This document shows positions 15,089 to 31,264 of a DNA stretch of 64,000 nt, piece by piece. The notes beneath the pieces are model-generated. The model was not told the DNA's origin, searched no databases, and worked only from the letters and a program-made list of their open reading frames with translations. This stretch comes from Neoroseomonas eburnea (lineage in GTDB: Bacteria > Pseudomonadota > Alphaproteobacteria > Acetobacterales > Acetobacteraceae), in contig NZ_JAAEDL010000002.1 in assembly GCF_018129005.1 (NCBI RefSeq), positions 1 through 64,000 of the forward strand. The letters run 5' to 3'. The position numbers and the translations under genes were made by a program. Numbering within the stretch: the stretch's first letter is position 1; every line of letters begins with the position of its first letter.

Positions 15089-15236
15089 GGGGGTGCGGCT
15101 AGGGCAAGGGGGTGCGCAGGGGTGCGTTGAACGCCCCCGCCGATCATCGCACCCCATAACAACTCAATGCGTTAGCACTCCCCCTCAGTCACTTACGCAC
15201 CAGGGGGTGCGGGATCGCCGCGATCACCGCACCCCC
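15089..15236. repeat. Six GGGGTGCG-type repeats in the divergent control region
   Basis: GGGGTGCG cores occur at 15089-15098, 15108-15117, 15119-15128 and 15203-15212, with inverted copies at 15148-15155 and 15227-15236. The last two direct/inverted copies form a perfect 10-base inverted repeat around a 14-base centre. The array lies between the sigma-like gene and the ImmA/XRE genes, the natural place for the lysis/lysogeny-type operators. Which protein binds is not known. Confidence 0.65.
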
Positions 15237-15327
15237 TCCCGTCGCGACCGCTGGACACCTCCACGGACGGGAACATAAAGTGAACTTACCGTTGCCCGAC
15301 CATCTCTAAGCCAGGGACCTTGTTCCT

Positions 15328-16056
15328 ATGTCCATCGCGATCGCCTATCCCGCAGCCGCGGCGCTCAGCCCGCGCCAGGACGCGGCTGCCCCAGCCATTC
15401 GTACCGTCGCCGCCCAGGTTCGGCGCCAGATCCCGCGCGAGCCCGACAGCCTCTCGCTCACCCTTCCGGCACTGATCGACGCCTGTCGCGCGGTCGAGGT
15501 GAACGGGCAGCGCCTGTCTGTGTCCTGGGAACTGGGCCGCGCGCTGCGCGACGAGTTCGGCCACACGGTGCTCGGCCTCTGCGACATCGATGCGCACGAA
15601 CCGGGCTGGGCCTACATCGCGGTCAATGGACCAATGACAGCCAATCGCCCTGACCTGGCGCTGAGCACGGCGGCGCATGAGCTCGGCCATCTGCTGTTCG
15701 ACGTGCCGGCCGCGCTGGCCAGGGGAGACCAGCGCTATCACGCGGTGGCCAGTTCACCGCGGGCGCTCGAACGTCAGGGTCGCGGCGCTGAAGCCCGTGC
15801 CAACGAGTTCATGGGTGCCCTGCTGGCGCCGCCTCTGCCGCTGCACACCCGGCTGCTGGCCTATGCGCGCAGCGAGGGGCTGCGGCTTTGCCGCGGGCCG
15901 CACCAGGGCCGGCCGGCCAGTCCGATCGTCGCGGCCGGCAATCCGCCCGATGTCCTGGCCGGCGTGCTGGCGGCGCTGGCCGGCGATTTCGGTGTGTCCG
16001 AGCGGTTCATCGCCGTGCGCCTGTCGCGCTACGGCCTGCTGGAAGGAGGCGTGTGA
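15328..16056 (+). CDS. ImmA/IrrE-family metallo-endopeptidase
   Basis: The 242-residue protein has the zinc-protease signature LSTAAHELGHLLFD (H117, E118, H121) and a downstream EARANEFMGALLAPP helix typical of ImmA/IrrE proteins. ImmA-type proteases cut the repressor of their own mobile element, often after DNA damage. A short XRE gene follows with a one-base overlap (TGATG), the classic ImmA/ImmR arrangement. A regulator/anti-repressor pair is therefore likely, acting on the repeats at 15,089-15,236. Confidence 0.8.
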   Translation: MSIAIAYPAAAALSPRQDAAAPAIRTVAAQVRRQIPREPDSLSLTLPALIDACRAVEVNGQRLSVSWELGRALRDEFGHTVLGLCDIDAHEPGWAYIAVNGPMTANRPDLALSTAAHELGHLLFDVPAALARGDQRYHAVASSPRALERQGRGAEARANEFMGALLAPPLPLHTRLLAYARSEGLRLCRGPHQGRPASPIVAAGNPPDVLAGVLAALAGDFGVSERFIAVRLSRYGLLEGGV

Positions 16057-16337
16057 TGGCGTTTGGCGATGTGGTGCGCGCCCGGCGCACGGAACTCGCA
16101 ATCGGGCTCAACGATCTGGCCGAACGGATGGGGATCTCGCCCGGCTACTGGTCGCGGATCGAGCGCAACCTCGACAAGCCACCGAGCGACGAGGTGGTCC
16201 AGCGCGCTGCGGCGATCCTTGGCATTCCGCTCGACGCATTGTTCGTCGAGGCGGAGCGCCTGCCGCCCGACATGCGCAAGGACATGGGCCGCGTCGTGCT
16301 GGCCTATCGCCGCCTGCGCAGCATGCGTGCGGGCTGA
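16056..16337 (+). CDS. XRE-family transcriptional regulator (likely element repressor)
   Basis: A 93-residue protein with a clear HTH. VVRARRTELAIGLNDLAERMGISPGYWSRIERNLDKPPSDEVVQRAAAILGI is the canonical five-helix XRE domain, followed by a short dimerisation tail (LPPDMRKDMGRVVLAYRRLRSM). GGAAGGAGG lies just before its ATG at 16056. Paired with the ImmA-type protease, it is the probable target of that protease. Operator candidates are the upstream repeats. Confidence 0.85.
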   Translation: MAFGDVVRARRTELAIGLNDLAERMGISPGYWSRIERNLDKPPSDEVVQRAAAILGIPLDALFVEAERLPPDMRKDMGRVVLAYRRLRSMRAG

Positions 16338-16348
16338 CGGAGGTCGCG

Positions 16349-17020
16349 ATGGCAAACCCGCCGAAGAAGAAGGTCTTCTATCAGATCGACGAGGTGTGCG
16401 AGCGGCTCGGGCTGTCGCTGCTCGACATGTCGGTGTTGGTATCCGAGCGGAAGATCCAGCTCTGCACCGCCGTGGCTGGCCTGCTGGTGGAGGACGGCCA
16501 CCACGAGGTCGCGCTCGATGGCGATGCCGCGCCGATCCCTGATAGCCGCCTTCGTGTTCAGGGCCTCGTCGACCTGAAGCCTGACGATGCGTGGTTCGTT
16601 CTGCGGCATGGATCGCAGACGATATTCTGGCTGGCTGCCGAGCCGGGTTGCTATCGGCGCCTGGTCAGCACGAGCGAGGAAGACCGCGGCTACACCGTCA
16701 TCCGGGACGAGGTCGGCGTGCGCCACGAGGAACTCGCGCGTTTCGCGGCCGCCGAGGAAGCGCTGGATAGCAACGCGCTTGGCCCGAAGGCCGGAGGACG
16801 CAGCTCGCAGCCGATTTATGACTGGGATGCGGCTCGGCTCGAGGCGTGCCGGCTGATCTACTTCGAGGGCGTGCCCGACTCCTTCGGCGCCCTGATCCGG
16901 CATGTGCAGGGCTGGTTTGCCGAGAAGGGCGGCAGGGTGCCCGACGAGAGCACGATGAAACGTCGGCTGCGCGATGTCTGGGCCATCTTCGGGTCGGAGG
17001 CAAAGCGGAAGGCGGCGTGA
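16349..17020 (+). CDS. Hypothetical mobile-element regulator-like protein
   Basis: The 223-residue protein begins MANPPKKKVFYQIDEVCERLGLSLLDMSVLV, which looks like an excisionase/MerR-type winged-helix start. The middle is beta-rich (LKPDDAWFVLRHGSQTIFWL). The C terminus (VPDESTMKRRLRDVWAIFG) is typical of a group of phage proteins with a terminal helical motif. No function is established. It follows the XRE gene by 11 bases with GACGGAGG before the ATG, so it belongs to the same plus-strand operon. Confidence 0.6.
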   Translation: MANPPKKKVFYQIDEVCERLGLSLLDMSVLVSERKIQLCTAVAGLLVEDGHHEVALDGDAAPIPDSRLRVQGLVDLKPDDAWFVLRHGSQTIFWLAAEPGCYRRLVSTSEEDRGYTVIRDEVGVRHEELARFAAAEEALDSNALGPKAGGRSSQPIYDWDAARLEACRLIYFEGVPDSFGALIRHVQGWFAEKGGRVPDESTMKRRLRDVWAIFGSEAKRKAA

Positions 17021-17103
17021 TCGGGGTGCTTCGCGTGGTGCCGTGAGAACGGCACCACCCCAAATCCGTACATAACAGGCAGGACCATGCGTGTTGGATC
17101 GCG

Positions 17104-17307
17104 ATGCCCCTGCCGAACCCGACCAATCACCACCTCCCGCCCCACCTACGCGAGGTCTGCGACCTTCTCGCCCGCGGCCTGCTGCGGCTCCGCAGCCGCG
17201 CTGCCGAGGAAGCGGCGCGGGGTGCGGCGGACCGGGGAGAGCGGTTGCTACACTTCCCGGCCGCCCAGCGCCTGCATGCGAACCGGACCACCCGGAGAGA
17301 CGCATGA
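17104..17307 (+). CDS. Small conserved protein preceding DUF2924
   Basis: A 67-residue protein starting MPLPNPTNHHLPPHLREVCDLLARGLLRLRSRAAE. Similar small proteins often precede DUF2924 genes in alphaproteobacterial islands; their role is unknown. Its stop overlaps the next ATG by 4 bases (ATGA), supporting that it is real. It is rich in Arg and Ala and has no signal peptide or catalytic motif. Confidence 0.6.
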   Translation: MPLPNPTNHHLPPHLREVCDLLARGLLRLRSRAAEEAARGAADRGERLLHFPAAQRLHANRTTRRDA

Positions 17308-17810
17308 CGCGCGCCACGAAGCCCAAGCCCGCCACCCCGCCGGCGTTCGCCGCCCCCGCCATCCCGCCCGCCGACGTGCTCGGCCGGCTTGCCGCCCTGA
17401 AGACCGCCGCCACGCCGGCGCTGAAGCAGCAGTGGCGGGAGCTCTTCGGCACCGAGCCGCCGCCCTACAACCGGCGCTTCCTGGAAAGCCGGCTCGCCTA
17501 TCGGATCCAGGAACTGGCCTATGGCGGCCTGAAGCCGGAGACGCTGGCTCGGCTAGAGGCACTCGGCGAGCAACTCGATGGCGGGAAGATCGCTGTCCGC
17601 CGCATGCGCGGCGACGACAAGCCGATCACCGGCACGCAGCTGATCCGCGAGTACCAGGGCGTCGAGCACGTCGTGACCGTCACGCGCGACGGCTACGACT
17701 ATTGCGGGCGCCCTTACCAGTCGCTCTCCGCCATCGCCCGCGCCATCACCGGCACGCGGTGGAACGGGCGCGTGTTCTTCGGGCTGCGCCCGAGCCGGAG
17801 CGCGGCATGA
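17304..17810 (+). CDS. DUF2924 domain protein
   Basis: This 168-residue protein matches the DUF2924 pattern: LKQQWRELFGTEPPPYNRRFLESRLAYRIQELAYGGL in the N-terminal half, then a beta-rich C terminus ending in ITGTRWNGRVFFGL. DUF2924 genes usually sit directly before a serine recombinase gene, as here with a 4-base overlap. The C-terminal half resembles DNA-binding saddle-like domains. A role in assisting recombination is inferred from this constant pairing, not shown. Confidence 0.8.
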   Translation: MTRATKPKPATPPAFAAPAIPPADVLGRLAALKTAATPALKQQWRELFGTEPPPYNRRFLESRLAYRIQELAYGGLKPETLARLEALGEQLDGGKIAVRRMRGDDKPITGTQLIREYQGVEHVVTVTRDGYDYCGRPYQSLSAIARAITGTRWNGRVFFGLRPSRSAA

Positions 17811-19159
17811 AGCGCGTCGCGAAGCTGACCGGCGCAATGCCCGCGACCGTGCGGAAGCTCCGCTGCGCGGTCTACACCCGGAAGTCGAGCGAGGAAGGGC
17901 TCGACATGGAGTTCAACTCCCTCGACGCCCAGCGCGAAGCGTGTGAGGCGTTTATCGCCAGCCAGCGCGCGGAGGGCTGGGTGCTGGTGCGCGAGCGCTA
18001 CGACGACGGCGGCATCTCTGGCGGGACGTTGGAACGCCCCGCCTTGAAGCGCCTCGTCGCTGATATCCAGGAGGGGCTGGTGGATGTGGTGGTGGTCTAC
18101 AAGATCGATCGCTTGAGCCGCTCGCTGGTTGACTTCACCAAGCTCGTCGAGGTGTTCGATGCGAACAATGTTACGTTCGTGTCGGTCACGCAGAGCTTCA
18201 ACACGACGACCAGCATGGGCCGGCTGACGCTGAATATCCTGCTCAGCTTTGCGCAATTTGAAAGAGAGGTCATCGGCGAGCGCATCCGCGACAAGGTCGC
18301 GGCGTCGCGCAAGCGCGGCATGTGGATGGGCGGGTTCGTGCCGCTCGGCTACGACGTGCGCGAGCGGAAGCTGATGGTGAACGACGCCGAGGCCGCGCTA
18401 GTGCGGCGGATCTTCCAGGGCTTCGTCGAGACGGAGTCATGCACCAAGCTGGTGCAGGCGCTGCGCGCCGAGGGCGCCACCACGAAGCGGGGCCGGCCGC
18501 TGACGAAGAGCGACGTCTACCGGATCCTCAGCAACCGCGTGTACCTCGGCGAGGCGGTGCACAAGGGCACGGCCTATCCCGGCGAGCACGACGCCATCGT
18601 CACCCAGGCGCAGTGGGACGCGGTGCACGCCGTCCTGCAGGTCAGCCCGCGGGTGCGGGTCAACCGGACGCGGAACACCACCGCGCCGCTGCTACGCGGG
18701 CTGATCTATGACAGCGACGGTCGCGCCATGTCGCCGAGCCACAGCCGCGGGCGGGGCGGGCAGGTGTACCGCTACTATGTCAGCCAGGCGGTGCTGAAGG
18801 GCGGCGCGACGGAGCGGCCGGCCATCGCACGGCTGCCGGCCGGCGAGATCGAGGCGGCGGTGGTCGCCCAGGTCCGCGCGCTGCTGCGACAGCCCGAGAT
18901 GGTGGTCGGCACGTGGCGGGCGGCGCGCGCCACAGCGCCGGACGTGACGGAGCAGGAGGTGCTGTTGGCGCTGGAGCGGATCGAGCCGCTGTGGGACGAG
19001 TTGTTCCCCGCCGAACGGGCGCGCATCGTGCGGCTGCTGGTGGACCGGGTCGACGTCCGGGCGGAGGGCGCCGCGGTGCGGCTGCGGCTCGACGGGCTGG
19101 GCAGCCTGGTGCGGGACCTCGCTGCGCAGGCGCCCGAGGCCGGGAGGGCGGCGGCATGA
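17807..19159 (+). CDS. Large serine recombinase (resolvase/integrase family)
   Basis: The 450-residue protein has a resolvase catalytic domain: RCAVYTRKSSEE with the nucleophile at S27 (YxRxS), SLDAQREAC, and VVVYKIDRLSRSLVDF. RFERE-type motifs follow in SFAQFEREVIGERIRDK. A recombinase domain (RGMWMGGFVPLGYDV, SDVYRILSNRVYLGEAVHKG) continues to a C-terminal coiled-coil region. It should integrate or excise the element at short core sites. It is only modestly long for the large serine group, and the usual zinc-ribbon cysteines are absent from the LLRGLIYDSDG region. Confidence 0.85.
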   Translation: MKRVAKLTGAMPATVRKLRCAVYTRKSSEEGLDMEFNSLDAQREACEAFIASQRAEGWVLVRERYDDGGISGGTLERPALKRLVADIQEGLVDVVVVYKIDRLSRSLVDFTKLVEVFDANNVTFVSVTQSFNTTTSMGRLTLNILLSFAQFEREVIGERIRDKVAASRKRGMWMGGFVPLGYDVRERKLMVNDAEAALVRRIFQGFVETESCTKLVQALRAEGATTKRGRPLTKSDVYRILSNRVYLGEAVHKGTAYPGEHDAIVTQAQWDAVHAVLQVSPRVRVNRTRNTTAPLLRGLIYDSDGRAMSPSHSRGRGGQVYRYYVSQAVLKGGATERPAIARLPAGEIEAAVVAQVRALLRQPEMVVGTWRAARATAPDVTEQEVLLALERIEPLWDELFPAERARIVRLLVDRVDVRAEGAAVRLRLDGLGSLVRDLAAQAPEAGRAAA

Positions 19160-19566
19160 GCGAAGCGGCGGCGCAGACCCTCACCGTGCTGATCCCGCTC
19201 CGGGCGAAGCCGCGCGGCGGGCGGAAGGCGATGGTCACGCCCGGCGTGCTGGCGCTGGAGCGCCGGCAGGACATCACGCTGATCAAGGCGGTGGCCCGCG
19301 CGTTCCGGTGGCGGCGGATGCTGGAGTCCGGCCAGTTCACTACGATCAAGGAGCTCGCCGCGGCCGAGAGGATCAACTCGTCCTACGTTTCGCGGCTGCT
19401 GCGGCTGACACTGCTGGCGCCGGACATCGTTGAGGCGATCCTGGACGGGCGGCAGCCGGAGGAGATGACGCTACCGGCGCTGATGGAGCCGTTTCCGGTG
19501 GAGTGGGACCGGCAGGCGTGCTCGCCAGGGGAACGCTTGCGGCTCGCACGAGCGCCAGACGTCTGA
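19156..19566 (+). CDS. HTH protein accompanying the serine recombinase
   Basis: A 136-residue protein with FRWRRMLESGQFTTIKELAAAERINSSYVSRLLRLTLLAPDIVEAILDG, a helix-turn-helix block typical of the small gene downstream of DUF2924-linked recombinases. It may control the operon or help direct excision; this is inferred from the association. The ATG overlaps the recombinase stop by 4 bases. A truncated second copy of this gene lies at 20,528-20,917. Confidence 0.75.
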   Translation: MSEAAAQTLTVLIPLRAKPRGGRKAMVTPGVLALERRQDITLIKAVARAFRWRRMLESGQFTTIKELAAAERINSSYVSRLLRLTLLAPDIVEAILDGRQPEEMTLPALMEPFPVEWDRQACSPGERLRLARAPDV

Positions 19567-19820: not shown

Positions 19821-20513
19821 ATGGCCACACTCGACAAGCATATCCGCCGATATACCTCGATCTCAGCGGTCATCGATATCCTGCGGCGCCGGGAACTCCC
19901 ATTGCTCGATCCCCAGAATTGGGACGATCGTAACGACCGCTATTTCATGGCTCGTTACAAGGAGAAGAAGGCGCTCGGCGGTCTTTACGCGCTTTGCGCG
20001 GCGAGATGCGGCGAGACCTATCACCACTGGCGCGTGTTCACCGGCACCGCGGATGGGGCATGCATCGAGATCAAGCGAGCGCCGCTCGAGAAGGCCTTGA
20101 GTAAAATCCCGGGCGTGAGCTTCGCCGAGATGAGGTACCTGCTGCTGAACCATATAGATGCTCTTACGACGGCAGACTTGGACAGTCTGCCGTTTGTGAA
20201 GCGGATTGGCTTCGCCGCGGAGGAGGAATATCGAATCGTCTATGAGACGGACGACCCGCAGGGCGCGGCCTATAGCCTCGAGTTTCCCCTCGCATGGATC
20301 AGCAGGATATACCTCAATCCGTGGCTGCCCGACCCGCTTTACGAGTCGGTGAAGGAGACGCTCCGCGCGCTGCCAGACTGCGCCAAGCTCTCCATCGTCA
20401 AATCCCGGCTTATCGATAGCGCGCGCTGGAAGAATGCGGGCGATAGGGTTATCGGCAAGGGGACGCCGCAGAAGAAGCGTGCGCTCAAGGTCCCGAGCAG
20501 TTCGAAGTCATAG
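19821..20513 (+). CDS. DUF2971-like cargo protein
   Basis: The 230-residue protein shows the DUF2971 pattern: RYTSISAVIDILRRRELPLLDPQNWDDRNDRYFM near the start, LYALCAARCGETYHHWRVFTGTADGACIEIKRA in the middle and FAAEEEYRIVYETD later. Function is unknown. DUF2971 genes are common cargo in phages and defence islands, so a defence or toxin role is possible. Its codon use and GC are lower than its neighbours. It lies between an intact and a truncated copy of the same HTH gene, as expected for cargo exchanged downstream of a recombinase. Confidence 0.65.
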   Translation: MATLDKHIRRYTSISAVIDILRRRELPLLDPQNWDDRNDRYFMARYKEKKALGGLYALCAARCGETYHHWRVFTGTADGACIEIKRAPLEKALSKIPGVSFAEMRYLLLNHIDALTTADLDSLPFVKRIGFAAEEEYRIVYETDDPQGAAYSLEFPLAWISRIYLNPWLPDPLYESVKETLRALPDCAKLSIVKSRLIDSARWKNAGDRVIGKGTPQKKRALKVPSSSKS

Positions 20514-20527: not shown

Positions 20528-20917
20528 GGCGCCCCACAGATCCTGACCATCCGCTTGCCGTTCGCGGCCCGGAAGCGGGGCAAAGGGAAGCTGGTGCTGA
20601 CGCCAAGCGGCATGGCGAACCGTGGCACCTCGGCCGCGGACACCACGCTGGTGAAGGCGATCGCGAGGGCGTTCCGATGGCGGCGAATGCTGGAGTCCGG
20701 GCGCTTCGGCACCATCAACGAGCTCGCCGCGGCCGAGAAGATCAACTCGTCCTACGTCTCGCGCGTGCTGCGGCTGACGCTGCTGGCGCCCGACCTCGTC
20801 GAGGCGATCTTGGACGGGCGGCAGCCGCAGGGGATGACCTTGCCGAGGTTGGTGGAGGACGTGGCGGTGGAGTGGCGCGATCATGCCGAGCGCGTCGACA
20901 TGCCACGAACGCGCTGA
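20528..20917 (+). pseudogene. Truncated second copy of the recombinase-linked HTH gene
   Basis: Translation from about 20528 gives ILTIRLPFAARKRGKGKLVL and then FRWRRMLESGRFGTINELAAAEKINSSYVSRVLRLTLLAPDLVEAILDGRQP, closely matching the intact copy at 19,156. It has no proper ATG start; only TTG at 20555 or an internal ATG at 20612 is available, and upstream the frame runs into the DUF2971-like gene. It is therefore read as a remnant of a related recombinase module. Its end overlaps the helicase gene on the other strand by 37 bases. Confidence 0.65.
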
Positions 20918-23900
20918 AAACTCTCGCCTTCCTCACCCGCCGCGAGCTCTGCAGCGTTGGGAAAAACAGGGCTGCCCGGGCTCCACAACTCAGTGGCGTC
21001 GGCGTGATCGTCATAGAAGGAGGGATCGGTCGTTACCCTCAACTCCGTTCGTCCTGGAAGCAGCAGCCCGTAGCTCTGGCCATCGAGACGCCGAACCTCT
21101 GTCCCGGGAGGTAGCAGCGCAGGATCGGAGATTACCCAGTCGAGGTCGTCCAGCGTGAGCGCCGGAACCGGACGCACGGGCTCTTCGAGGTCTGATGCCA
21201 CGGCAGTGTCGAGGTCGAAGCCCCCGCCCTCGGCCCGCGCCGCGTCGACTGCGCGCTCGACGTCCTCCACCGCCGCGCGTCCATCGCCCGTCAGCACTCG
21301 CTCGCCCAACAGGCGCGGCATACGCGCGAGGATGGGCTGCAACCCGCCCACTACGCTTTGGAACAGGCCGATGCGCCGCCTGAGCGCCATGTACACGTCG
21401 GCCTCTACCGTATCGGCGTAGTGAAGGTTGACGATGCGGATGCGCTCGAACCGCTGGCCGAGGCGATCAATGCGGCCGATCCGCTGCTCCACCCGCATCG
21501 GGTTCCACGGGCTGTCGTAGTTGATGAGGGCGCCGCAGAACTGAAAGTTCAGGCCCTCCGCCGCCGCGTCAGTGCAAAGCAAGATCTCGGCCGCGCCCTC
21601 GCGGAAGCGGCGCTTCACCTCGTCGCGTGAGATGACGCGCCACGTCCCGTCCTGCGACTGCACCTCGCCGCCCCGCCCGGAGAAGCACATGATCCGCGAG
21701 CCGCCGTCCGCCGACAGTTCACGCCGGAGCAAGTCCATCGTGTCGGTGAACCCGGTGAACACCATCACTTGCTCGAAGCCCTCAGCGCGAAGCGCGGCAA
21801 TCTCGGCGCGCAACTTTTGCAATTTGGTGTCCGGTGGCAGGCGACGGATCATGGCAAGCAGCCGCTCGATGTCCGACTTCTCCTCTAGCGCCAGCGCCTG
21901 CTTGGCGAGGCGCTCCGCCTCGTCCTCCTCGGGCGCGTCGGCCTCGTCCTCGTCCACCTCCTCGTCCAGTTCGGCGGCGAGCAGCGCCCCTGCCTTCGCC
22001 GGGTCCGCGATGGAGGCCATGTGCGCTTCCAAGGTGCAGCGGAGCGCGTGGAAGGACGAGGCGAGGCGACGGCGATAGATCGTCATCACGAAGCCGACTG
22101 CGCTCCGCTCCTGCGCGGTCGCACCGCGCGCAGCAACGGCGTTGTAGGTGGAGGAGATGTAGTCCTCCACGGCGTCGTAGATGATGCGCTCATCGGCCGA
22201 GAGTTCAATGAACTCGTCGCGCACATCGCGGTCCGCGATACGCGTCGAGAGTTTGCCCTGCTTATGGTAACGCCGGAGTAGGTCGCGGGTGTGGCGGCTC
22301 ACCAGCCGCGCCACCGGGCTGTTGCGCCGCATAAGCGCCACCGCCGCACGTCGCTGGTCGGCCTCCAACTGACGACGTGGGACGCTGGCAGGATCGCGGA
22401 GCGCCGCCAGCACCTTGCGGGCACGTAGCGCGCTGGTGAGCCCGAGCGACTGCAAGGCGGCGGGTTCCACCTCGCCAAAGGCACGCTCAGCCGCGCGGAA
22501 CAGCACCGCCATCCGATCTAGTGCCTCGTGGCTCGGATTGTCCTTCGCCGCGTCCTCGAAGAAGCGGAGGAACGCGCCCTCCGACCATTCGGGTGGCAGG
22601 CCGAGAAGTTGAAGCAGGTCCCAGACCTCCACGGGGTGAACCTGCATGGGTGTGGCCGTCAGCAGCACCAGCCCCTGCGTCCGCGCTCTCAACCCGCGCA
22701 TGAGCCTCAGCAGCGCGTTGGGTCCGCTCTCCTGCGCGCTGCCCGCGCCGCGCCGCCTCGCATGGTGCGCCTCGTCCAGCACGACGAGATCCCACGGGTC
22801 GGCGGCCTCCAACACCTCACGCTGGCGCTCTGTCCGGCGCAGCAGATGCGACGAGACGAGGACGAACGGCTCCTTGTGCCAATCGGCGCGGGACACGGCG
22901 CGCTCGTGGCCGCCCGCCATCGCCGGGCTCGGGAACCAGCACAACTTGCCACCGTCGTAGATTGGCCAGTTGAGGTTCAACTTCTCCCGCAACTCGATCT
23001 GCCACTGCTTGACCACCGCTTTCGGCGCCATCAGCAGGATGCGCTTCGCACGGCCAGCGAGCATGGCCTGACGCATCACCAGCCCGGCTTGAAGCGACTT
23101 GCCCAAGCCGACCTCATCCGCGATCAGGAGTCTCGGGGGCCAAGCCCGATACATGCGCTCGAAGGCACGGACCTGATGCGGCCAAGGTGTCACCGTGCTG
23201 GTCGCTTCTGCTACGCGCTCGCCACCGACCGGCTGAAGCGGCGCGCGTGCGATAGCCGCCCAGACACGCCGACGCCGATCTACCGGAGGGACCGCCACAG
23301 GAGCGGACTCTGGCTCTGGCGCTGCCACCGGCTCGGGCTTTGGCGTCGCCTGCTTCGTCTTTGCCGCCTTCATCGCGGCAGGCAGTTCACCGGGATCTGG
23401 CAGGAATCGCAGCAGGTCCTCGCGGGCCGCCTGCGGCACATCCACCACGAGCGCACGCTTCGCCTTGTCGGCCCACAATTTGGCGAAGTGCTCCTCCTCC
23501 AGCGCGACACGCGCCGGATCGCCCCACGAGGTGAAGACGTGCAGGCTCTCGAAATTCTGCGTCCACCCCGCCGCCGTCTCGTTGAGGCTGCCGCTGAAGG
23601 CGACCTTCTGACCGGTCTTGTCCTCCACGATCCCCGCCTTCTCGTGGAAGATGGCGGTCCCGGAGAGGGGCCTGCGATTGCTGTCGCAGGGCACCGCGAC
23701 TTTCACCTCCAGCCGCCCCTGTTCAACCAGCCACGCGAGGATCTCCAGACCCTGCCGCGCAGCGTCATCGCCGGGTTCGAGCGGTAGCGCCGTCAGGCGC
23801 CGCCCAACGGCTGTGCGCAGCGCCTCGCCCCTCTCAATGGCCGCTACTTCGTCCGGACCGAGCGTGCAGCCGACCACGAGGCGCATGGACCCGTTGTTCA

Positions 23901-24075
23901 GTGCCAGCCCTTCAATGCCGCGCGCGGCGAGCGCGAGGGCCGTTGCCGAGAAGTAGCCGGTGAGCCGGTCATACCGCTCAGCGCACGACAACAGCGGCAC
24001 GTAGAGGCCCGCCACAAGGTCGCCGTCCTCCGGCGTGTAGCGGAGCCTCCACTGGAAGTCCGAGAGGACCGGCAC
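20881..24075 (-). CDS. PLD-domain SNF2-family helicase, defence-associated
   Basis: A 1064-residue fusion. The N terminus is a phospholipase D-like nuclease domain with FHEKAGIVED and FSGSLNETAAGW (about residues 138-165); only one HxK motif is evident. The SNF2/RapA-type helicase has LLIADEVGLGKSLQAGLV (near 320), VLDEAHHARRRG (DEAH, near 430), LLTATPMQVHP and NYDSPWNPMRVEQRIGRIDR. An acidic stretch (EEVDEDEADAPEEDEAE) separates the helicase lobes. Similar helicases occur in DISARM-like loci. It lies 3 bases after the DUF1156 gene in the same operon. It probably translocates on DNA and cleaves it; the substrate is unknown. Confidence 0.75.
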   Translation of the reverse strand: MPVLSDFQWRLRYTPEDGDLVAGLYVPLLSCAERYDRLTGYFSATALALAARGIEGLALNNGSMRLVVGCTLGPDEVAAIERGEALRTAVGRRLTALPLEPGDDAARQGLEILAWLVEQGRLEVKVAVPCDSNRRPLSGTAIFHEKAGIVEDKTGQKVAFSGSLNETAAGWTQNFESLHVFTSWGDPARVALEEEHFAKLWADKAKRALVVDVPQAAREDLLRFLPDPGELPAAMKAAKTKQATPKPEPVAAPEPESAPVAVPPVDRRRRVWAAIARAPLQPVGGERVAEATSTVTPWPHQVRAFERMYRAWPPRLLIADEVGLGKSLQAGLVMRQAMLAGRAKRILLMAPKAVVKQWQIELREKLNLNWPIYDGGKLCWFPSPAMAGGHERAVSRADWHKEPFVLVSSHLLRRTERQREVLEAADPWDLVVLDEAHHARRRGAGSAQESGPNALLRLMRGLRARTQGLVLLTATPMQVHPVEVWDLLQLLGLPPEWSEGAFLRFFEDAAKDNPSHEALDRMAVLFRAAERAFGEVEPAALQSLGLTSALRARKVLAALRDPASVPRRQLEADQRRAAVALMRRNSPVARLVSRHTRDLLRRYHKQGKLSTRIADRDVRDEFIELSADERIIYDAVEDYISSTYNAVAARGATAQERSAVGFVMTIYRRRLASSFHALRCTLEAHMASIADPAKAGALLAAELDEEVDEDEADAPEEDEAERLAKQALALEEKSDIERLLAMIRRLPPDTKLQKLRAEIAALRAEGFEQVMVFTGFTDTMDLLRRELSADGGSRIMCFSGRGGEVQSQDGTWRVISRDEVKRRFREGAAEILLCTDAAAEGLNFQFCGALINYDSPWNPMRVEQRIGRIDRLGQRFERIRIVNLHYADTVEADVYMALRRRIGLFQSVVGGLQPILARMPRLLGERVLTGDGRAAVEDVERAVDAARAEGGGFDLDTAVASDLEEPVRPVPALTLDDLDWVISDPALLPPGTEVRRLDGQSYGLLLPGRTELRVTTDPSFYDDHADATELWSPGSPVFPNAAELAAGEEGESFQRVRGMSTRSA

Positions 24076-24078
24076 GGC

Positions 24079-27057
24079 TTATGCGGCCTCCTCCGCGAAC
24101 AGTTTCAACTGCTCGGGCTCAGGCACGCGGTCGGAGAGCGCGAGGCGGCGAAGGTTCTCCAGCGCCTCGAAGTCGCCCGCTGCCGCCGCAAGGTCGCCGT
24201 CGAGCGAGAGCCCAGAGAAGGTGCGCGAAGGCGGCAGCACCTCCAGCGCGTAGGTCAGAGCCTGCTGGAAGGCAGGGTCGGTCAGCAGGCCCGCGCGCTC
24301 GGCCATTTCCTTCGCTGCCGCCAGCGTCTTGGAACGGGCGGCGTTGGCAATGTGGTGCAGCGCATCCACCATCGCTCGTCCTCCGTCCGGCGAGCCGAGG
24401 GCGGCCTTGGCGGCGCGCTTCGCGCTGTCCCACAGGATGAGGTCGCTGCCCTTCTTCTCGGCCAGCGTGCCGACCACCTGCGCGTCGAGGTCCACTCCCA
24501 CCGCACGGGCAAGGCGCAAGCCTTCGTCGTAAGGGAACTGCGGAGCCTTGAAGGCGTCCCATGCGAGGACGAAGAAACTCGTCAGCGGATCAAGGGCGCC
24601 GGGTGCGGACTTCCGAGCCAATTGCTCCAACCGCCACTGCTTCACCTCGCGCCTCGCGGCATCGAGCGCGTCCTCAGGCGTCACGGCGTAGGGGTCGTAT
24701 TCCTCCTCGAACAGCGCAGTCTGGCGCAAGCGCTTCTTCGCCTCTGGCGTCGGGCGCGGCGTGCCGCGCTTTAAGGGCCAGTGGCGGGAGAACTCCTCCA
24801 AGGCGGGACCGAAGCAGGCGAGATAGAGATCGACGCCACCAATTCCTGCCTTCTGGAACTCCTCCACGCGGTGGCGCACGGCGCGAGCAACGAGGGGCTC
24901 CACATCCTCCCAATACTCCTGCGCGCTGTCTGCTGGCGCTGCCTCGCGCGGGCGACAGACAAGGAAGATGGTGCTGTTGGCCGCAGATCTATTCCGGATG
25001 TGCGTACTGCTCTCGGCCTCGGTGTTGATGGGCCACGAAGCGGTGATGACGAAGCCTGCCTCCATCAGCCCCTTGGTAAGGGCATCCCAAGCGCCAGTTG
25101 CCTTGTGGGTGAACATTAGCGTCATGATGCCGTTGGGCTTCAGGACGCGACGGCACTCCTCGAAGATCCGGGCCATGCGTTGCTGATAGTCCCGGCCCGC
25201 TAGCGCCTTCGCACCCTTTTGGCCGTCGAACTTGGCCGGGTTAGCGACAGCCTCGTTGTCCTTGTCGGTCAGGCGGCGGGTGAAGAGTTCAGGATAGACC
25301 TGCCCTGCGGTGCGCTTGAGCCAGACGTAGAAGAAGTCTGACAACTCCGCATACATGACGTTATCGTAATAAGGGGGGTCCATCACCACGATGTCTACGC
25401 TGCCGTCCACGACATGAAGGAGTTGGTCGGCGGAACTGCAGGTGACCGTGACGGGTGGATGCTTCACGGGTGTGCCGGCACCCAACAGCCCCCCATCGTT
25501 GACGGTGTCTGGACGAGCAAGTTCGACTAGTTCACCGATGCATTTCTCCACCTGACCGGTCACCCATTGGTAGCCGCTGCTGGTGATGGCGGGCGCCATC
25601 TCCGCAAAAGACCACCGAAGAGCAAAGTCATGTCTGGCGAAGGTATGGCCGATTGCCTGCTTCGATGCCTCCCACGTGCTGGCGCGGCTGCTGTAGTCGA
25701 GCATCTTATCGAGGCTGAAGGCCAAGTAGACGAACGCCGCTTTGGTTACGTCGTCCAGTCTTCCTGCTGCTCGATGTTCATCGAGCAATTCGCGGAATAC
25801 CTCAACGCCCGTTCCGTGGCCGAGGAGTTGGCGCGGGTTGAACAGATCGCGCCAACGCCGTATGCCGTATCGCATTGGCTCTGTCGTCTTATTGCCATCC
25901 GGCAGAGACTCGCCCGGAACGAAGTCCAGCGCTTCCCACTCGGGCATCTTCTCGGCCAAACGCGCGGCGATTTCGGCGCTGTTGTCGTCCTCCGGACGCG
26001 GGGCGCGGTAGCCGCGCTCCCACTTGTCGCGCCCTTTCTTGCCCGCCCTAGTCCGGGTTTCAATCCGGCGCTTGAACACGATGGCAAACAACTGTTCGCC
26101 CATCTCACCCTGCAGGGCCTGCGTCTTGATGCTGTCGCCCTCGATGACGCGCTTACAGTCTGGGTAGGGGCAAAGGCCATCTCCACCCGAGACGGTTCCC
26201 TCCGATTGCTGCTTTACATCTTCAACAATCTCGAAGGTGCACCGCCTGTCCGGGTCACCGGGGCCAGCACCGCAATGCGTCAGCAACCGAACGCCTGCGC
26301 CATCTTGGTCCAACCGCCAGTTAGGAGACAGCGGCACCAATCCTTCGCAATGGGGGCAGCGTATTGTGCGTGCCCAGAGATAGGCCAAGACCTGCGTATC
26401 TGTAGACTCTGAGGGATAAACGCCGCGAAGGCGGACCGTGGAGCGCCGGATGAAATCTGCCGCCAGCCGCTGGAACGCAGGCTGAAGTTCCGCGCCGTGG
26501 TTCAGCGGGAACTCCACCGTGGCCTTCTCCAACAGCGCGGCGACGGGATTCAAGTCGTTGGCTAAGGTCGAAAGCCCGAGCCGAACCGACTCGAATGGGA
26601 TAGCGCCACCTCCGGCAGTCGGATCAAGGGCCGTCAGTTCCGGCCCAACTCGATTCTCTCCAAACCAGCGACGATCCTCCGTGTCAGGGCACCAACTGAA
26701 CGCACGCGCGTAGCCGTAGGGGTTGAGGCCAAGGTTCTCGCCAGTGCGCTTTGCTGCATCAATCCTGCGGCGGACCGCTATCGGATCGCCGTGTATCCCG
26801 AGGGCTCGCAAGAAACTCTTCCGGCTTGCATCGGCTGGAAGGGCTGATGCGAGCAAGGCTGCGCGACTAGCAACAAGCGGCCTGCGTGCCCACCACACAT
26901 GAAGGTAATAAACTGGAGGAAGCGCCTGCAGCGAGCGCCGCTCCCGCGCGCTTTCCTCACCAAGCGCAGCGATGGGCAGCCACCGCTCGATCAGCCGAGT
27001 GTCGGAACTACTACCCGCCCGCGCCCCCGACGCCCCCTGCACTCCGTCCATTGTCAC
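24079..27057 (-). CDS. DUF1156-type DNA methyltransferase, defence-associated
   Basis: The 992-residue protein begins with the DUF1156 region ([19 protein letters not shown] at 21-39, [20 protein letters not shown] at 51-70). [19 protein letters not shown] (145-151) is the SAM-binding motif. [20 protein letters not shown], near residue 557, is the catalytic DPPY motif. It should methylate adenine N6 or cytosine N4. DUF1156 enzymes are found with DUF499 ATPases in predicted antiphage loci, where they probably mark self DNA. The frame starts with GTG at 27057; the ATG at 27051 is equally possible. It is divergent from the DUF499 gene. Confidence 0.8.
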
Positions 27058-27271
27058 CCCCGGTCCAAATCAGCCGCTCAGCGGCGGCCTGTTCTGGGAA
27101 CGCTATCACGGCTTTGGGTCTGGGCGCAGGAGGGCAGCGCCTCGGTCGCCGCGCCGCCAGACTACAGGGAGGCCCGGAGAACGGTCGGGCAGAGCACAGG
27201 GCCATCGGGCGCTAGTGTCCTCCGAGGCAGCCTGCCATTCTACAAGTAACCGGGACGACGAGCACCTCCAC
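27058..27271. promoter_or_regulatory. Divergent control region of the defence-like locus
   Basis: These 214 bases separate the two divergent halves of the locus and must contain promoters in both directions. I see no dominant palindrome or convincing -35/-10 pair. Open frames extend across it from the DUF499 side, but the coding pattern starts only at the ATG at 27272. Confidence 0.45.
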
Positions 27272-30200
27272 ATGACCAGCCCACTGCCGCCGACCATCTT
27301 CGACCTGTGCGAGCCGCGCGACGACGTGGCCAAGGGGACATCATCGGACGCTGACTTCGCGGCCAACCTCGCTCGCGTCCTGCGCGGCGGTTCGGAAGCA
27401 CCGAAGGAATATGCTGAGCCAGCACGTTTCTTTGCGAATACGTTTCCCACACGAGGCTTGAAGGACCTGCTTCGGAACGTCTGCGGGCGCCTCTCGGGCA
27501 ACGGTGGATCGGTCGCTGCCATCTTCCGCCTCGACACCACCTTCGGCGGCGGCAAGACGCACGGCCTGATCGCCCTCGTCCATGCGGCGCGGGGCATGCC
27601 CGGCGTGGCGAATCCAGAGGAGTTTGTGGACCCGGACCTGCTGCCCAAGGGCGAGGTCCGAATCGCCGCATTCGACGGGGAAAACGCCGACCCCGCCAAT
27701 GGCCGCCGCATGGCCCCGGACGTGCTGGCCTACACCCCGTGGGGCGAGATCGCTTACGCGCTGGCTGGGCGCGAGGGCTACGAGCGCGTCCGCCGCTCCG
27801 ACGAGACCGGGGTGGCGCCGGGGGCGGAGACGCTGGCCGAACTGTTCGGCGGCCAACCCGCCCTCATCCTCATGGATGAGTTGGCGATCTACCTGCGGAA
27901 GGTGGCGAACCGGCCGGGCGCGAAGGATCAACTGACGGCGTTTCTCACTGCGCTCTTCACCGCTGTGGAGTCCTCGCCAAAGGCCGCCCTCGTCTACACG
28001 CTGGCGGTCGGCAAGGACGGACGCGCGGGTGACGCCTATTCCGACGAGAATCAATTCGTGGCCGACCGCATGGCGGAGGCGATGAGCGTCTCGGCGCGCA
28101 AGGCCACGCTGCTCAACCCGACCGAGGACGACGAGACGGTGCAGGTGCTGCTGCGCCGCCTCTTCGCTCGCGTGGACCGGACGCGCGCGCCGGAGGTGGT
28201 GGCGGCCTACAAGGAAGCGTGGAGCAAGAATCGCGAGGCGCTGGCCATTGAGGCCGCGAAGCCGAAGACGCTGGAAGACTTCGCCGCCAGTTACCCGCTG
28301 CACCCGGAGGTGCTGGAGACGCTGACCGCGAAGACCGCGACGCTGGCTGACTTCCAGCGGGTTCGTGGCATGTTGCGCCTGCTCGGACGCGCGGTGCAGC
28401 GCCTTTGGCAGGAGAAGCCCGCCGACGCGCACGCCATCCATCTGCACCACATCGACCCCGGCTTTGAGCCGATCCGCATGGAGATCACCACGCGGCTCGG
28501 CCAGACCATGTATGTCCCCGCCATCCGGTCTGACGTGGCGGGTGAAGGCGGGACGCTCGCGCTGGGGCAGGAGATCGACGCGAAGAACCACAAGGGGCTG
28601 CCGCCCTTCGCCACCTACGTGGCGCGCACGATCCTGATGCACACGCTGGCCTTCAACGAGGCGCTGAAGGGCTTGTCGCCGGAGCGGCTGCGCTACGCGG
28701 TCATCGGCCCCGCTCTTGACCTCGCCTTCGTGGAGGAGGCGCGGAAGGCATTCGTCTCGCAGTCCGCCTACCTTGATGATCGGCCCGGTGTGCCGATGCG
28801 ATTCTTGGTGGAGGCGAACCTCACCCAGATCATCCGCCGCGAAGAGCAGAACGTTGATCCGGGTGAGGCCCGGTCGCAGTTGAACGACCTGATCAAGGGC
28901 ATCTTCAAGGGGCAGACCTTGGAGATGGTGCCCTTCCCCTCCGGACCGTGGGAGGTTCCGGACGAGGTGGGCGAAGGGAAGCCGCTGCTCGTGGTGATGT
29001 CACCCGACGCGGTCTCGGTCGGGGCGTTAGTGGAGGAGGTGCCCGAACTCATCGGGCGCATCTACGAACGGAAGGGCTCGGACGGCACGGCTTACCGGCT
29101 GCTGCGGAACAACGTGCTCTTCGTTGTGGCCGAAGACGGGCGCGTTGACGCGATGCGCGCCAAGATGACGCGCCGCCTCGCGCTGCGGGCTCTGAAGTCG
29201 CCTTCGCGGCTTGGGGAACTGGCGGAGCACCAGCAGGCCACGGTGCGCGAGCAAGAGGCGAAATCCGAGGCGGAGGTCGCCATCGCCGTTCAGCAATGCT
29301 TCCGACACATCTTCTTCCCGTCCAACCTCCGCATCGGCAGCAGCACCGTGTCGCTGGCGCATACGGCACTGGAGGTCCACGGTGCATCGGAGAAGCCCGG
29401 CGCGGGGCAGCAGCAGGTGGTTCGGCAGTTGCGCGAGGCACGGAAACTGCGGACGGCCGAAGACGAGCCAGACGCGCCCGCCTACGTCCGTGACCGGACG
29501 CCGCTGCGAAAGGGCCAGATCACCACGGCTGCGCTGCGCGAGCAGTTCAGGCAGGACGCCACGCTGCCGATGCTCGTTGGCGATGACGTTTTCGTTCGCG
29601 GCATCCGGCTCGGCGTGGATCGTGGCGAGTTCGTCTACAGGAAGGGTGACCTTCTCTACGGCAAGGGCGATCCGCACACGCCGATCTCTGTCGAGGAGGA
29701 GGCCGTCGTGTTCACGATGGCCTACGCGGTGGAGCACAACATCTGGCCGCGCGCCGAGAAGAAGGCGGCGCCCGGCGCGGAGGGGGCGACCGGCGGATCG
29801 TCGGGCAGCACGACCTTCACCCAGCCCGAGGGGAAGGGAGGAGGTGCCGCTGAGGGCGGAGGTGCGGCCCCAACGCTGGGCGAGGGTGGAGGCGGGACAA
29901 CGACCGCTCCGCCGCCTCAACACGAACTCCTGCACGCCGAAGGCGTGCTGAAGGAGGCCCTGAACCGAATCTTCGAGCAGGCGTCTGCACGCAAGGTCGC
30001 GGCCATCTCTCGGCTGACAGTGCGCGTATTTGAACCGGCGGATGGCTTCCGTCTGCTCGGCGTCGTCGGCGCCATCCGCAATGCCGAGATCCGCGCGAGC
30101 ATCAAGGGCGAATTCGAGACGGCGGCCGGAAGCACGGTCGTGGTCGGGTTCGAGGGGGTGCCTCAGGATGCCCTGCCGCTTCGGGACTTCCTCGACCCGC

Positions 30201-30364
30201 AATTGAAATTGGCGGCCGAGAAGGACGTCACCTTCGTCCTGAGTCTCGGCTACAAGGAGGGCTTGCCCACCTCAGGTGAGGCGCCCGTGAAACTGGTCGA
30301 ACAGTTGACGCGCTTCGTGACCGGAGCCGCCTATGTTGAGGCCACTGCCGAGCCGAAGCCATGA
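27272..30364 (+). CDS. DUF499-type ATPase, defence-associated
   Basis: A 1030-residue P-loop protein. IFDLCEPRDDVAKGTSSDADFAANL opens the DUF499 region, FRLDTTFGGGKTHGL (near 90-98) is Walker A, and ALILMDELAIYLRKV (near 200) is Walker B. A Gly-rich linker follows around residues 830-890 (for example GGSSGSTTFTQPEGKGGG), then a C-terminal alpha/beta domain. DUF499-related ATPases belong to the BrxC/PglY-like group of antiphage systems. Here it probably forms an ATP-driven complex with the DUF1156 methyltransferase and helicase. The ATG at 27272 is chosen because the family starts near TIFDLC; upstream in-frame residues lack similarity. Confidence 0.8.
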   Translation: MTSPLPPTIFDLCEPRDDVAKGTSSDADFAANLARVLRGGSEAPKEYAEPARFFANTFPTRGLKDLLRNVCGRLSGNGGSVAAIFRLDTTFGGGKTHGLIALVHAARGMPGVANPEEFVDPDLLPKGEVRIAAFDGENADPANGRRMAPDVLAYTPWGEIAYALAGREGYERVRRSDETGVAPGAETLAELFGGQPALILMDELAIYLRKVANRPGAKDQLTAFLTALFTAVESSPKAALVYTLAVGKDGRAGDAYSDENQFVADRMAEAMSVSARKATLLNPTEDDETVQVLLRRLFARVDRTRAPEVVAAYKEAWSKNREALAIEAAKPKTLEDFAASYPLHPEVLETLTAKTATLADFQRVRGMLRLLGRAVQRLWQEKPADAHAIHLHHIDPGFEPIRMEITTRLGQTMYVPAIRSDVAGEGGTLALGQEIDAKNHKGLPPFATYVARTILMHTLAFNEALKGLSPERLRYAVIGPALDLAFVEEARKAFVSQSAYLDDRPGVPMRFLVEANLTQIIRREEQNVDPGEARSQLNDLIKGIFKGQTLEMVPFPSGPWEVPDEVGEGKPLLVVMSPDAVSVGALVEEVPELIGRIYERKGSDGTAYRLLRNNVLFVVAEDGRVDAMRAKMTRRLALRALKSPSRLGELAEHQQATVREQEAKSEAEVAIAVQQCFRHIFFPSNLRIGSSTVSLAHTALEVHGASEKPGAGQQQVVRQLREARKLRTAEDEPDAPAYVRDRTPLRKGQITTAALREQFRQDATLPMLVGDDVFVRGIRLGVDRGEFVYRKGDLLYGKGDPHTPISVEEEAVVFTMAYAVEHNIWPRAEKKAAPGAEGATGGSSGSTTFTQPEGKGGGAAEGGGAAPTLGEGGGGTTTAPPPQHELLHAEGVLKEALNRIFEQASARKVAAISRLTVRVFEPADGFRLLGVVGAIRNAEIRASIKGEFETAAGSTVVVGFEGVPQDALPLRDFLDPQLKLAAEKDVTFVLSLGYKEGLPTSGEAPVKLVEQLTRFVTGAAYVEATAEPKP

Positions 30365-30843
30365 ACATCGCCCGCCTGCCCTCGCGCCAGCCGACTGAGC
30401 CCTCCTCCGCGCCACTCTACGAGGCGCGGATCGTCCGCCACGGCGCGGGCGATACCGAGATCGAGGTGTGGCAGTTGCCCTCCGCCGCGAGCCCGCAATT
30501 GGCCGCGCCGCGCCGCCTTGCCGGGCTTCGGGGTCGTAACCTCGACCTTGTGGAGCACCGGGTCCTGAAGTCGCTGGCGGCGGCCGGGGTGAAGTTCGCC
30601 CCGCTGGCGGGTCGGCGAGAGGCGCGGCCCTTAGGGGAGGACGCGGCGCTGCGGCTCGGCCTTCTGTTCCGGACCCTCGCCCCCATGCGGAACCGCGACT
30701 CCATGCGAGCTGTGGCGGAGGGTATCGAGGCGATGGGGCGCGAGGAGGCGGGCTACTGGCTCGGCATGGCCATGCACCGGCGGAACCCCCGCCGAGTCCT
30801 AACCGCCCTGCGCTACCTGATGACGGACCCAAGGCAGAAGTAG
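30361..30843 (+). CDS. Unrecognised 160-aa partner of the DUF499 ATPase
   Basis: The protein starts at an ATGA overlap with the DUF499 stop, so it is translated together with the ATPase. The N-terminal third is strand-rich (YEARIVRHGAGDTEIEVWQL). The rest is helical (NLDLVEHRVLKSLAAAG, AALRLGLLFRTLAPMRNRDSMRAVAEGIEAMGREEAGYWLGMAMH). There is no catalytic motif, Cys cluster or membrane segment. Its fixed position suggests a small structural or regulatory subunit of the defence complex. It could also be unrelated cargo, but the overlap argues against that. Confidence 0.6.
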   Translation: MNIARLPSRQPTEPSSAPLYEARIVRHGAGDTEIEVWQLPSAASPQLAAPRRLAGLRGRNLDLVEHRVLKSLAAAGVKFAPLAGRREARPLGEDAALRLGLLFRTLAPMRNRDSMRAVAEGIEAMGREEAGYWLGMAMHRRNPRRVLTALRYLMTDPRQK

Positions 30844-31173
30844 CCCAGTGACAATTGATCGAATGCGCCGCGGCCGACATGCGCGGTGCGTAGCGGCACT
30901 TTTCGGGGTGTTCGCGCACTAAGTACGGATTTCGGGCAAGTGGTGTTCGAACCAAAGCAAATCGCGACCACGCAGAAAGCCACGAACTACCTAACTTTTC
31001 AACTTCCGTACTAAATCGGCCAGGTCAACGGGCTCGGAGAGAACACGGCGCCGGAGAGCGATTTTCGGCCGTTTCCGCGTCAAGCCAGTCAACAGGTCTA
31101 CTCTGAAAACCCCAAGAAACCTGCCAGTCAGCGCGGCGGTCGATCTGTCGGAGAGCGGGACGCCCAATGGAAC
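30844..31173. other. Gene-free island edge next to tRNA-Ser
   Basis: No gene is supported in these 330 bases. The stretch 30,910-31,020 is relatively A/T-rich. AGTACGGA (30922-30929) and TCCGTACT (31005-31012) form a widely spaced 8-base inverted repeat. Frames running through it toward the tRNA are artefacts of the tRNA sequence. It borders the 3' end of the tRNA and so probably marks the island boundary. Confidence 0.5.
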
Positions 31174-31264
31174 TGGCGGACAGGGTGGGATTCGAACCCA
31201 CGATACGCTTTTGACGTATACGCACTTTCCAGGCGCGCGCCTTCGACCGCTCGGCCACCTGTCC
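31174..31264 (-). tRNA. tRNA-Ser (anticodon GGA)
   Basis: The reverse complement begins GGACAGGTGGCCGAGCGGTC and ends CACCCTGTCCGCCA with encoded CCA. The 7-base acceptor stem pairs perfectly (GGACAGG/CCTGTCC). The anticodon loop CTGGAAA gives GGA, reading UCC serine codons. A long variable arm, as in class II tRNAs, and a GGGTTCGAATCCC T-arm are present. Its 3' end points toward the mobile region. Confidence 0.95.

Follow-up and report, generated by a model that had tools for sequence, protein, structure and literature searches.

A DUF7680-marked gene set of Neoroseomonas eburnea that probably forms an antiviral system of the BREX-related superfamily, beside the DUF3780 and Hma lineages

A 64,000-nt stretch of the Neoroseomonas eburnea genome (the window, to which all position numbers refer) carries four genes coding for a nuclease-helicase fusion, a DUF1156-type DNA methyltransferase, a DUF499 ATPase and a small DUF7680 protein (Table 1). 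We consider it likely that together they form a restriction-modification-like antiviral system of the BREX-related (BR) superfamily, representing a DUF7680 lineage beside the DUF3780 lineage and Hma. To judge from its genes, the system very probably protects bacteria against foreign DNA. We favor this antiviral BR-type assignment because the motifs are intact, the gene set is fixed and co-inherited, the proteins are distant from the known types, the locus lies on a mobile island, and its relatives keep the company of defence genes. The original prediction had described a defence-like set akin to BREX, and both points are supported. Systems of this kind were already known; what we judge to be the best new content is that DUF7680 marks an unnamed lineage and is probably the structural counterpart of DUF3780. 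The family is named nowhere in the literature searched, nor in the main text of the 2026 classification (PMC12839542), whose supplementary data may include such loci unnamed.

All four open reading frames (ORFs) are open at the coordinates of Table 1, and the families assigned to them at first sight hold. Pfam E-values for the window proteins are 3e-13 (DUF1156), 9e-32 (DUF499), 1e-15 (SNF2) and 3e-17 (Helicase_C), and the fourth product, initially described as a 160-aa partner, belongs to Pfam PF24728 (DUF7680) and is hence no orphan. As predicted, the genes make up two coupled pairs, one per strand, with a 3-base gap between the methyltransferase and helicase genes and a 4-base overlap of DUF499 with DUF7680. 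The DUF499 ORF extends back to 26972, and it is the ATG at 27272 that yields the 214-base spacer. No sigma-70-like promoter was found in 26950-27350, which is little informative since about none would be expected from shuffled sequences. The window proteins retain intact Walker A and B motifs (DUF499), helicase motifs, HxK...GSxN residues (HKD domain) and DPPY (methyltransferase). In alignments, the HxK and GSxN residues are kept in 48 of 48 related DUF7680-type helicases; the H and K are also present in 5/5 DUF3780-type helicases, and 11/11 Hma-type helicases have gaps at the HxK stretch. DPPY is kept in all 62 related methyltransferases. The window methyltransferase, which we take to be COG1743-like, additionally has two cysteine pairs that may form a Zn-ribbon.

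Table 1. Features of the window, with positions, strand and the basis of each call
Feature	Positions	Strand	Basis
HKD (phospholipase-D-like) nuclease domain fused to SNF2/SWI2 helicase, 1064 aa, GTG start	20881..24075	-	Pfam SNF2-rel_dom, Helicase_C; PLDc_2 just below cut-off; PADLOC
HKD catalytic motif region, helicase residues 144-165 (HEKAGIVED ... GSLN)	23581..23646	-	Sequence and alignment conservation
DUF1156-type DNA methyltransferase, 992 aa, start GTG 27057 or ATG 27051	24079..27057	-	Pfam DUF1156, PADLOC, motifs
214-base spacer separating the divergent gene pairs; local feature	27058..27271	.	ORF coordinates
DUF499 AAA+ ATPase, 1030 aa, Walker A GGGKTH, Walker B LILMDE	27272..30364	+	Pfam DUF499, PADLOC, motifs
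DUF7680 protein, 160 aa, predicted four strands and five helices	30361..30843	+	PF24728 E 4e-42, AlphaFold2
Large serine recombinase ORF, resolvase domain from residue 261; mobility gene, end opposite the tRNA	17087..19159	+	Pfam Resolvase, Recombinase
tRNA-Ser (GGA), probable integration site of the island	31174..31264	-	tRNA call; relative L165
Element end, DUF7680 to tRNA-Ser	30844..31173	.	Parts recur beside tRNA-Ser in L015, L165

The four genes travel together. When a DUF7680 alignment was scanned against a genome collection covering 84,980 species, 170 places were confirmed and the best 80 were kept as loci (L-numbers denote loci fetched for comparison in this analysis); many contigs or fetched stretches in this set end too early to show all genes. 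DUF499 lies directly upstream of DUF7680 (gap of at most 600 bases) in 77/80 loci, and the other three (L012, L032, L048) are on contigs that start within about 100 bases of DUF7680. Among loci with at least 3.3 kb of upstream sequence, DUF499 is upstream in 69/69, and the gap is at most 100 bases in 68 of the 77. The methyltransferase was recovered in 67 of the 80 loci, the helicase in 48 and the complete four-gene set in 47. For 56 loci at least 7 kb of downstream sequence is available, and the methyltransferase is present in 52 of them: downstream in 49, overlapping in 1 and on the divergent side in 2. Tree distances among the four proteins correlate at r 0.94-0.98 over 41 loci, the window and plasmid loci included, and for each of the six protein pairs none of 999 permutations gave a correlation as high. 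Thus, the neighborhoods do not show homologues usually occurring apart, the outcome that would have told against the original prediction. We conclude that the four genes are a real, coherent and widespread unit.

The 80 loci comprise 40 from Pseudomonadota, 17 from Acidobacteriota, 5 from Cyanobacteriota, 3 from Verrucomicrobiota and 15 from others or unassigned; 12 named phyla are represented, to which a plasmid adds Actinomycetota. The four-gene set was found on plasmids of Aminobacter, Sinorhizobium, Nostoc, Leptolyngbya, Natrinema, Rhodococcus and Haloplanus, so that annotated plasmids extend the range to haloarchaea (Natrinema, Haloplanus) and Rhodococcus. Some carrier plasmids are typed as conjugative and others as non-mobilizable, and several copies are on contigs titled chromosome. 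Samples of 299 genomes from the window's phylum contain 4 with DUF7680, 1 with DUF3780 and 25 with DUF499; all four DUF7680 genomes are within the 25, the DUF499 match of G291 being below the cut-off. Contigs of IMG/VR hold DUF7680 in 6 loci (L157-L162) and DUF3780 in 28 (L129-L156). Three of the six DUF7680 loci are complete, one has DUF7680 and the methyltransferase only, and two gave none of the four by tblastn at 1e-8. At L028:7222-20410 there are apparently two tandem copies of the DUF7680 and methyltransferase stretches. In cyanobacterial plasmid loci, a VapC-type toxin gene and a partner gene stand between the methyltransferase and the helicase (L007:15474-16117, L010:20377-21056).

Systems centred on DUF499 have been classed as BREX-related, Types 1-3 (PMC12839542). 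According to the main text of that paper, Type 1 is Hma, whose helicase mostly carries a C-terminal restriction endonuclease (REase) domain, 21% of Type-1 taxa being without a fused REase; Type 2 combines an HKD-helicase with a standalone DUF3780 gene, the latter in 98% of taxa; and Type 3 requires PglZ and mostly also has iSTAND. In the same text, the ATPase, methyltransferase and SNF2 helicase of BREX type 3 are homologues of the BR core, and HKD fusion is described for Type-2 helicases only. Earlier, COG1743-DUF499-SNF2 genes fused to PD-(D/E)XK or PLDc nucleases had been put forward as a predicted archaeal restriction system (PMC7641849).

In the window, the features of BR membership, namely a DUF499 ATPase, an N6-type methyltransferase with DUF1156 and an SNF2 helicase in one locus, are present, as is the Type-2 feature of an N-terminal HKD on the SNF2 helicase (by motif, PLDc_2 being just below its cut-off). 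DUF3780 (PF12635) has no match in the window's own genome, and its slot holds DUF7680. A Pfam scan found no REase domain on the window helicase. PglZ (PF08665) and PF09369 (formerly DUF1998), which we take to be the mark of DrmB, are likewise unmatched in this genome, in agreement with the original prediction that both would be lacking.

To calibrate the comparison with known types, identical PADLOC models were run on the window and on one reference locus per type (Hma L105, Type-2 L093). Scores for HmaA/HmaB/HmaC are 177/262/288 bits in the window versus 2160/1662/1433 in L105, and those for PLD_Helicase/DUF1156_MTase/DUF499 are 245/154/132 versus 1232/1297/1032 in L093. Related models are therefore matched, but with scores 5-12 times under those of the reference loci. 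The NCBI Type-2 equivalog models (NF042962-NF042964) gave 377 bits (cut-off 1100), 226 bits (cut-off 1000) and 195 bits (cut-off 1200), a 3-6 fold shortfall. Gene order was informative as well. Six DUF3780 loci run DUF499-DUF3780-methyltransferase-helicase, and the usual order of DUF7680 loci is a collinear DUF499-DUF7680-DUF1156-helicase (45/47 complete genome loci); because this order is shared, DUF7680 occupies the DUF3780 slot. Among the Hma-type loci that have all three genes, 10/11 show the order helicase-methyltransferase-DUF499, the helicase being turned in L099. It is thus highly improbable that the window holds an ordinary Hma (Type-1 BR) system: its proteins do match the HmaA, HmaB and HmaC models, but the low scores, the reversed gene order of Hma-type loci, the presence of an HKD and a Pfam scan in which the C-terminal REase was not found all contradict such an assignment.

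Trees of the three core proteins, which come from quick searches and are unrooted with long branches, separate the groups further. The label Hma-type in these trees stands for rows without DUF7680 and DUF3780, so that their lack of DUF7680 is no evidence, and DUF499-only contigs, L103 and L119 are not proven Hma; the rows labelled PglZ comprise L102, which has a weak PglZ match (E 0.02), and L124, placed for low scores alone. In the methyltransferase tree, 25 DUF7680 rows lie on one side of a branch with a Shimodaira-Hasegawa-like approximate likelihood ratio test (SH-aLRT) support of 94, 6 DUF3780 rows are supported at 100 and 14 Hma-type rows at 99. The groups also separate in the helicase tree. 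In the DUF499 tree, DUF7680 and DUF3780 rows jointly part from the Hma type (98), and the 5-6 DUF3780 rows form their own group with support 100 in all three core trees. Raw scores and motifs had hinted at a mosaic origin, with the methyltransferase from Hma and the helicase from Type 2; the unrooted trees need no such conflict, and the idea was dropped because the DUF3780 branch is simply longer. Two fetched loci have other arrangements. L102:9998-16018, on a haloarchaeal plasmid, runs DUF499, the weak PglZ match and a methyltransferase and is perhaps Type-3 BR. L103:1416-12958, on a Planktothrix plasmid, has DUF499, a 194-aa protein of no known family, a DUF1156 methyltransferase, an AAA ATPase and a NOV_C-SNF2 helicase; its gene content suggests another member with an unassigned small gene.

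We compared DUF7680 and DUF3780 using AlphaFold2 models. The DUF7680 model, built from 36 sequences, has a mean predicted local distance difference test (pLDDT) score of 87.6 and a predicted template modelling (pTM) score of 0.84; the DUF3780 model, from 22 sequences of the IMG/VR loci, has values of 83.6 and 0.77. The DUF7680 model consists of strands 19-28, 31-39 and 51-57, helix 58-74, strand 86-91 and helices 93-106, 112-124, 127-139 and 143-155. The DUF3780 model consists of strands 13-19, 26-35 and 42-51, helix 52-72, strand 83-87 and helices 89-102, 107-119, 122-136 and 145-155, plus a short last helix. Nine elements therefore occur in identical order and with similar lengths in both, in agreement with the four-stranded sheet and five helices given for DUF3780 in the main text of PMC12839542. 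In both families the fourth helix keeps an E-E-aromatic motif and the fifth is A-L-R-like; hhalign lines up these helix motifs, without significance. In the untrimmed hhalign comparison, the real score was 18.9 and that of the reversed profile 14.4. A structure search with DUF7680 gave no match at E <= 0.001 in either PDB or BFVD (best BFVD E 0.018), and the best E against PDB sequences was 0.33. With VIA-align, the best Z was 3.8 for DUF7680 and 3.6 for DUF3780, giving no clear PDB relative for either; such absence of known-fold matches does not prove a new fold for DUF7680. Altogether, the models suggest that DUF7680 and DUF3780 likely have a common fold and that DUF7680 is a probable structural counterpart of DUF3780.

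Several results pull against the lineage and function proposed here. SH-aLRT support for the DUF7680 branch of the helicase tree is only 62. The free DUF499 tree gave no single DUF7680 group; a tree with one such group is 5.5 log units better (approximately unbiased test, p-AU 0.76), and one placing DUF3780 next to the Hma type likewise survives the test (p-AU 0.55). Sisterhood with Type 2 is therefore no more than a possibility. Among the 56 loci whose downstream sequence reaches 7 kb or more, four (L012, L044, L057, L072) showed no methyltransferase. On the side of function, PLDc_2 (25.2 bits, cut-off 27) and N6_N4_Mtase (24.7 bits, cut-off 26.7) score under the Pfam cut-offs, so that the HKD nuclease and methyltransferase activities rest on motif conservation. 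As for the small proteins, hhalign gave E 0.02-0.34 between DUF7680 and DUF3780 with narrow and wide alignments, and we claim no sequence homology; in the trimmed control the real score was 15.4 and the reversed one 13.8, and 21/200 column shuffles and 159/200 block shuffles reached 15.4.

These points bear on whether the window set is simply a divergent Type-2 BR system, with DUF7680 a fast-evolved DUF3780 and no separate lineage deserving a name. The identical gene order, HKD-helicase and slot speak for it, as do the matching order of secondary-structure elements and the EE-aromatic motif in the fourth helix of both. We nonetheless find it rather doubtful, given the low PADLOC scores against the Type-2 reference, equivalog cut-offs missed 3-6 fold, a genome in which DUF3780 was not found, a profile comparison that yields no homology, and DUF3780 rows that group by themselves with full support in every core tree.

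On the preferred assignment to a DUF7680 lineage of restriction-modification-like systems, a division of labor can be proposed. Judging from DPPY and the family, the DUF1156 methyltransferase would put N6-methyladenine on host DNA and so mark it as self. The DUF499 ATPase, likened in the literature to ORC/Cdc6 proteins, might assemble on DNA and scan it; DNA looping has been proposed for it (PMC3710099). DUF7680, co-produced with DUF499, could act as an adaptor or reader linking the scanner with either the mark or the effector; its slot, its fold and what has been proposed for DUF3780 lead us to this role. The HKD-SNF2 protein, whose motifs are observed, would translocate on unmarked DNA and nick or cut it. 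The chief mechanistic alternative is a block without cleavage, as reported for PbeABCD, in which the HKD-SNF2 protein translocates and halts replication. Residues 4-442 of the window helicase match the PbeA model at 230 bits, versus 113 for the one DUF3780-type helicase tested, and the portion of PMC6459918 dealing with DndCDEA-PbeABCD reports no sign of viral DNA cleavage. This alternative seems quite improbable all the same, as the HKD residues, kept in 48/48 helicases, are hard to explain without catalysis, and the annotation around the plasmid loci names no dnd gene.

Related loci often hold further genes. Among L012-L091, an insert of more than 500 bases separates DUF7680 from the methyltransferase in 44/65 loci and measures up to 9.7 kb, longer inserts exceeding the fetched flank. 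Ten of 143 insert ORFs were scanned, and one adjacent pair corresponds to PtuA and PtuB of Septu (404 and 174 bits). The others carry HSP70, AAA-TPR, Schlafen-AlbA, kinase-ORC, M78-peptidase or HATPase domains, with PADLOC scores of at most 106 bits or none. Homologues of PtuA and PtuB are both present in 7 of the 44 inserts; the window locus itself is without an insert of the Septu kind. Hma, too, is often found together with Septu (PMC8565338). We regard the Septu company as a hint of defence, and as the strongest contextual one besides the gene families themselves.

The divergent layout of the window, by comparison, is local. It occurs in 2 of the 47 complete genome loci, or 3/48 counting the window, and in the other two (L053, L075, both Acidobacteriota) about 2.3 kb separates the gene pairs; therefore the shared 214-base region, correctly described for the window, is no mark of the system. 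Since L014, L015, L018 and L020, all near relatives, have the collinear order, the window's layout presumably arose by inversion of the DUF499-DUF7680 pair. The nearest named kin are L012 (Acetobacteraceae) and L014 (Paracraurococcus).

The system resides in a serine-recombinase island, between the recombinase and tRNA-Ser, and its predicted place at an island edge beside these two is supported. The recombinase region shares 85% DNA identity with its counterpart in L165, whose genome belongs to the same family; there the recombinase lies about 6 kb from tRNA-Ser (GGA), followed by the same core gene; the intervening DNA is unlike the four genes. Relatives of the window recombinase with 67-87% identity accompany the DUF7680 loci L015, L020 and L025. 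From tRNA-Ser (CGA), L015 runs DUF499-DUF7680-(Septu)-methyltransferase-helicase-recombinase, and the window's DUF499-DUF7680 pair points the opposite way. Parts of the element end (Table 1) also occur beside a partial tRNA-Ser-like stretch in L018. A search for attachment (att) repeats found no second copy of the tRNA-Ser 3' end in the window, which leaves the island's left end without an exact position. In an empty-site comparison of 10 relatives' stretches beside the tRNA or core gene (one of 658 bases), blastn found the recombinase only in L165.

This setting is relevant to the alternative that the genes mainly serve their carrier mobile element by excluding rival plasmids or elements, phage defence being secondary. 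The location of the window copy in the island, and of others on plasmids and in IMG/VR contigs, is in its favor; we hold it to be unlikely given the copies on contigs titled chromosome and the embedding of Septu, a phage defence system, in some loci.

Other elements surround the locus. A small gene following the recombinase, HTH-like by eye and without a Pfam match, is duplicated (19156-19566 and 20555-20917, with a 238-nt core repeat 82% identical). The copies bracket an ORF (19821-20513) with a match to the PADLOC candidate PDC-S31 and a DUF2971 match below cut-off, and L165 also has spaced copies resembling the small gene. The stretch 9000-16500 encodes a DEAD helicase (10216-11892), an AAA_24 ATPase (12592-13464) and a sigma-like ORF (14449-15162); stretches 66-74% identical to this block occur on contigs C29 and C36 of the same genome and in several relatives, and it is perhaps a repeated phage- or plasmid-like module.

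DUF7680, a Pfam family of unknown function, thereby gains a functional hypothesis and becomes a new marker for a defence superfamily that was noted piecemeal since 2013 and classified whole in 2026. Should DUF7680 and DUF3780 belong to one fold family, a comparison of the lineages would reveal the important parts of the small subunit and would test the idea that it reads methylation marks. Loci with embedded Septu genes lend themselves to the question of cooperation between stacked defence systems. A bolder proposal, to which we would assign an even chance, is that the set represents a fourth, undescribed BR type of bacteria and haloarchaea marked by DUF7680 as structural counterpart of DUF3780, that both belong to a single family of small readers or licensing factors gating the HKD-helicase nuclease, and that the DUF7680-methyltransferase junction docks further defence systems such as Septu.

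The window set can also be compared with known systems one by one. DISARM shares with it a helicase of the SNF2 superfamily, and DrmD models, as well as a single model named DrmA (144 bits), do hit the window helicase at scores lower than its best matches; the other three genes match no Drm model and the genome has no PF09369. Of the relationships originally predicted, that to DISARM therefore extends no further than the helicase. PbeABCD is alike in that the helicase's 440 N-terminal residues are covered by a PbeA model match and unlike in its other partners, with no dnd genes named beside the annotated plasmid loci. BREX type 3 has a homologous ATPase, methyltransferase and SNF2 helicase (PMC12839542, main text), and its PglZ was not found in this genome; Type-3 BR similarly shares the DUF499 and N6-methyltransferase core and differs by PglZ, which has no match here. 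Hma shares the helicase, the DUF1156 methyltransferase and the DUF499 ATPase, HmaB and HmaC being the best PADLOC matches of two window proteins, but it has the reverse gene order (10/11), no HKD and, in the main text of PMC12839542, a C-terminal REase. Type-2 BR (PADLOC PLD_Helicase/DUF1156_MTase/DUF499) has the same four genes in the same order, the HKD-SNF2 fusion and a small alpha+beta protein in second place. It differs in that this small protein is DUF3780 there and DUF7680 here, in that the three core proteins are far from the Type-2 models, and in that the second cysteine pair of the window-type methyltransferase is absent from the alignment rows of 6 sampled DUF3780-type proteins. The separate type once suggested for this locus is thus not one without known relatives, and we judge the window set to be a third lineage, alongside Type-1 BR (Hma) and Type-2 BR (the DUF3780 type) and nearest in architecture to Type 2.

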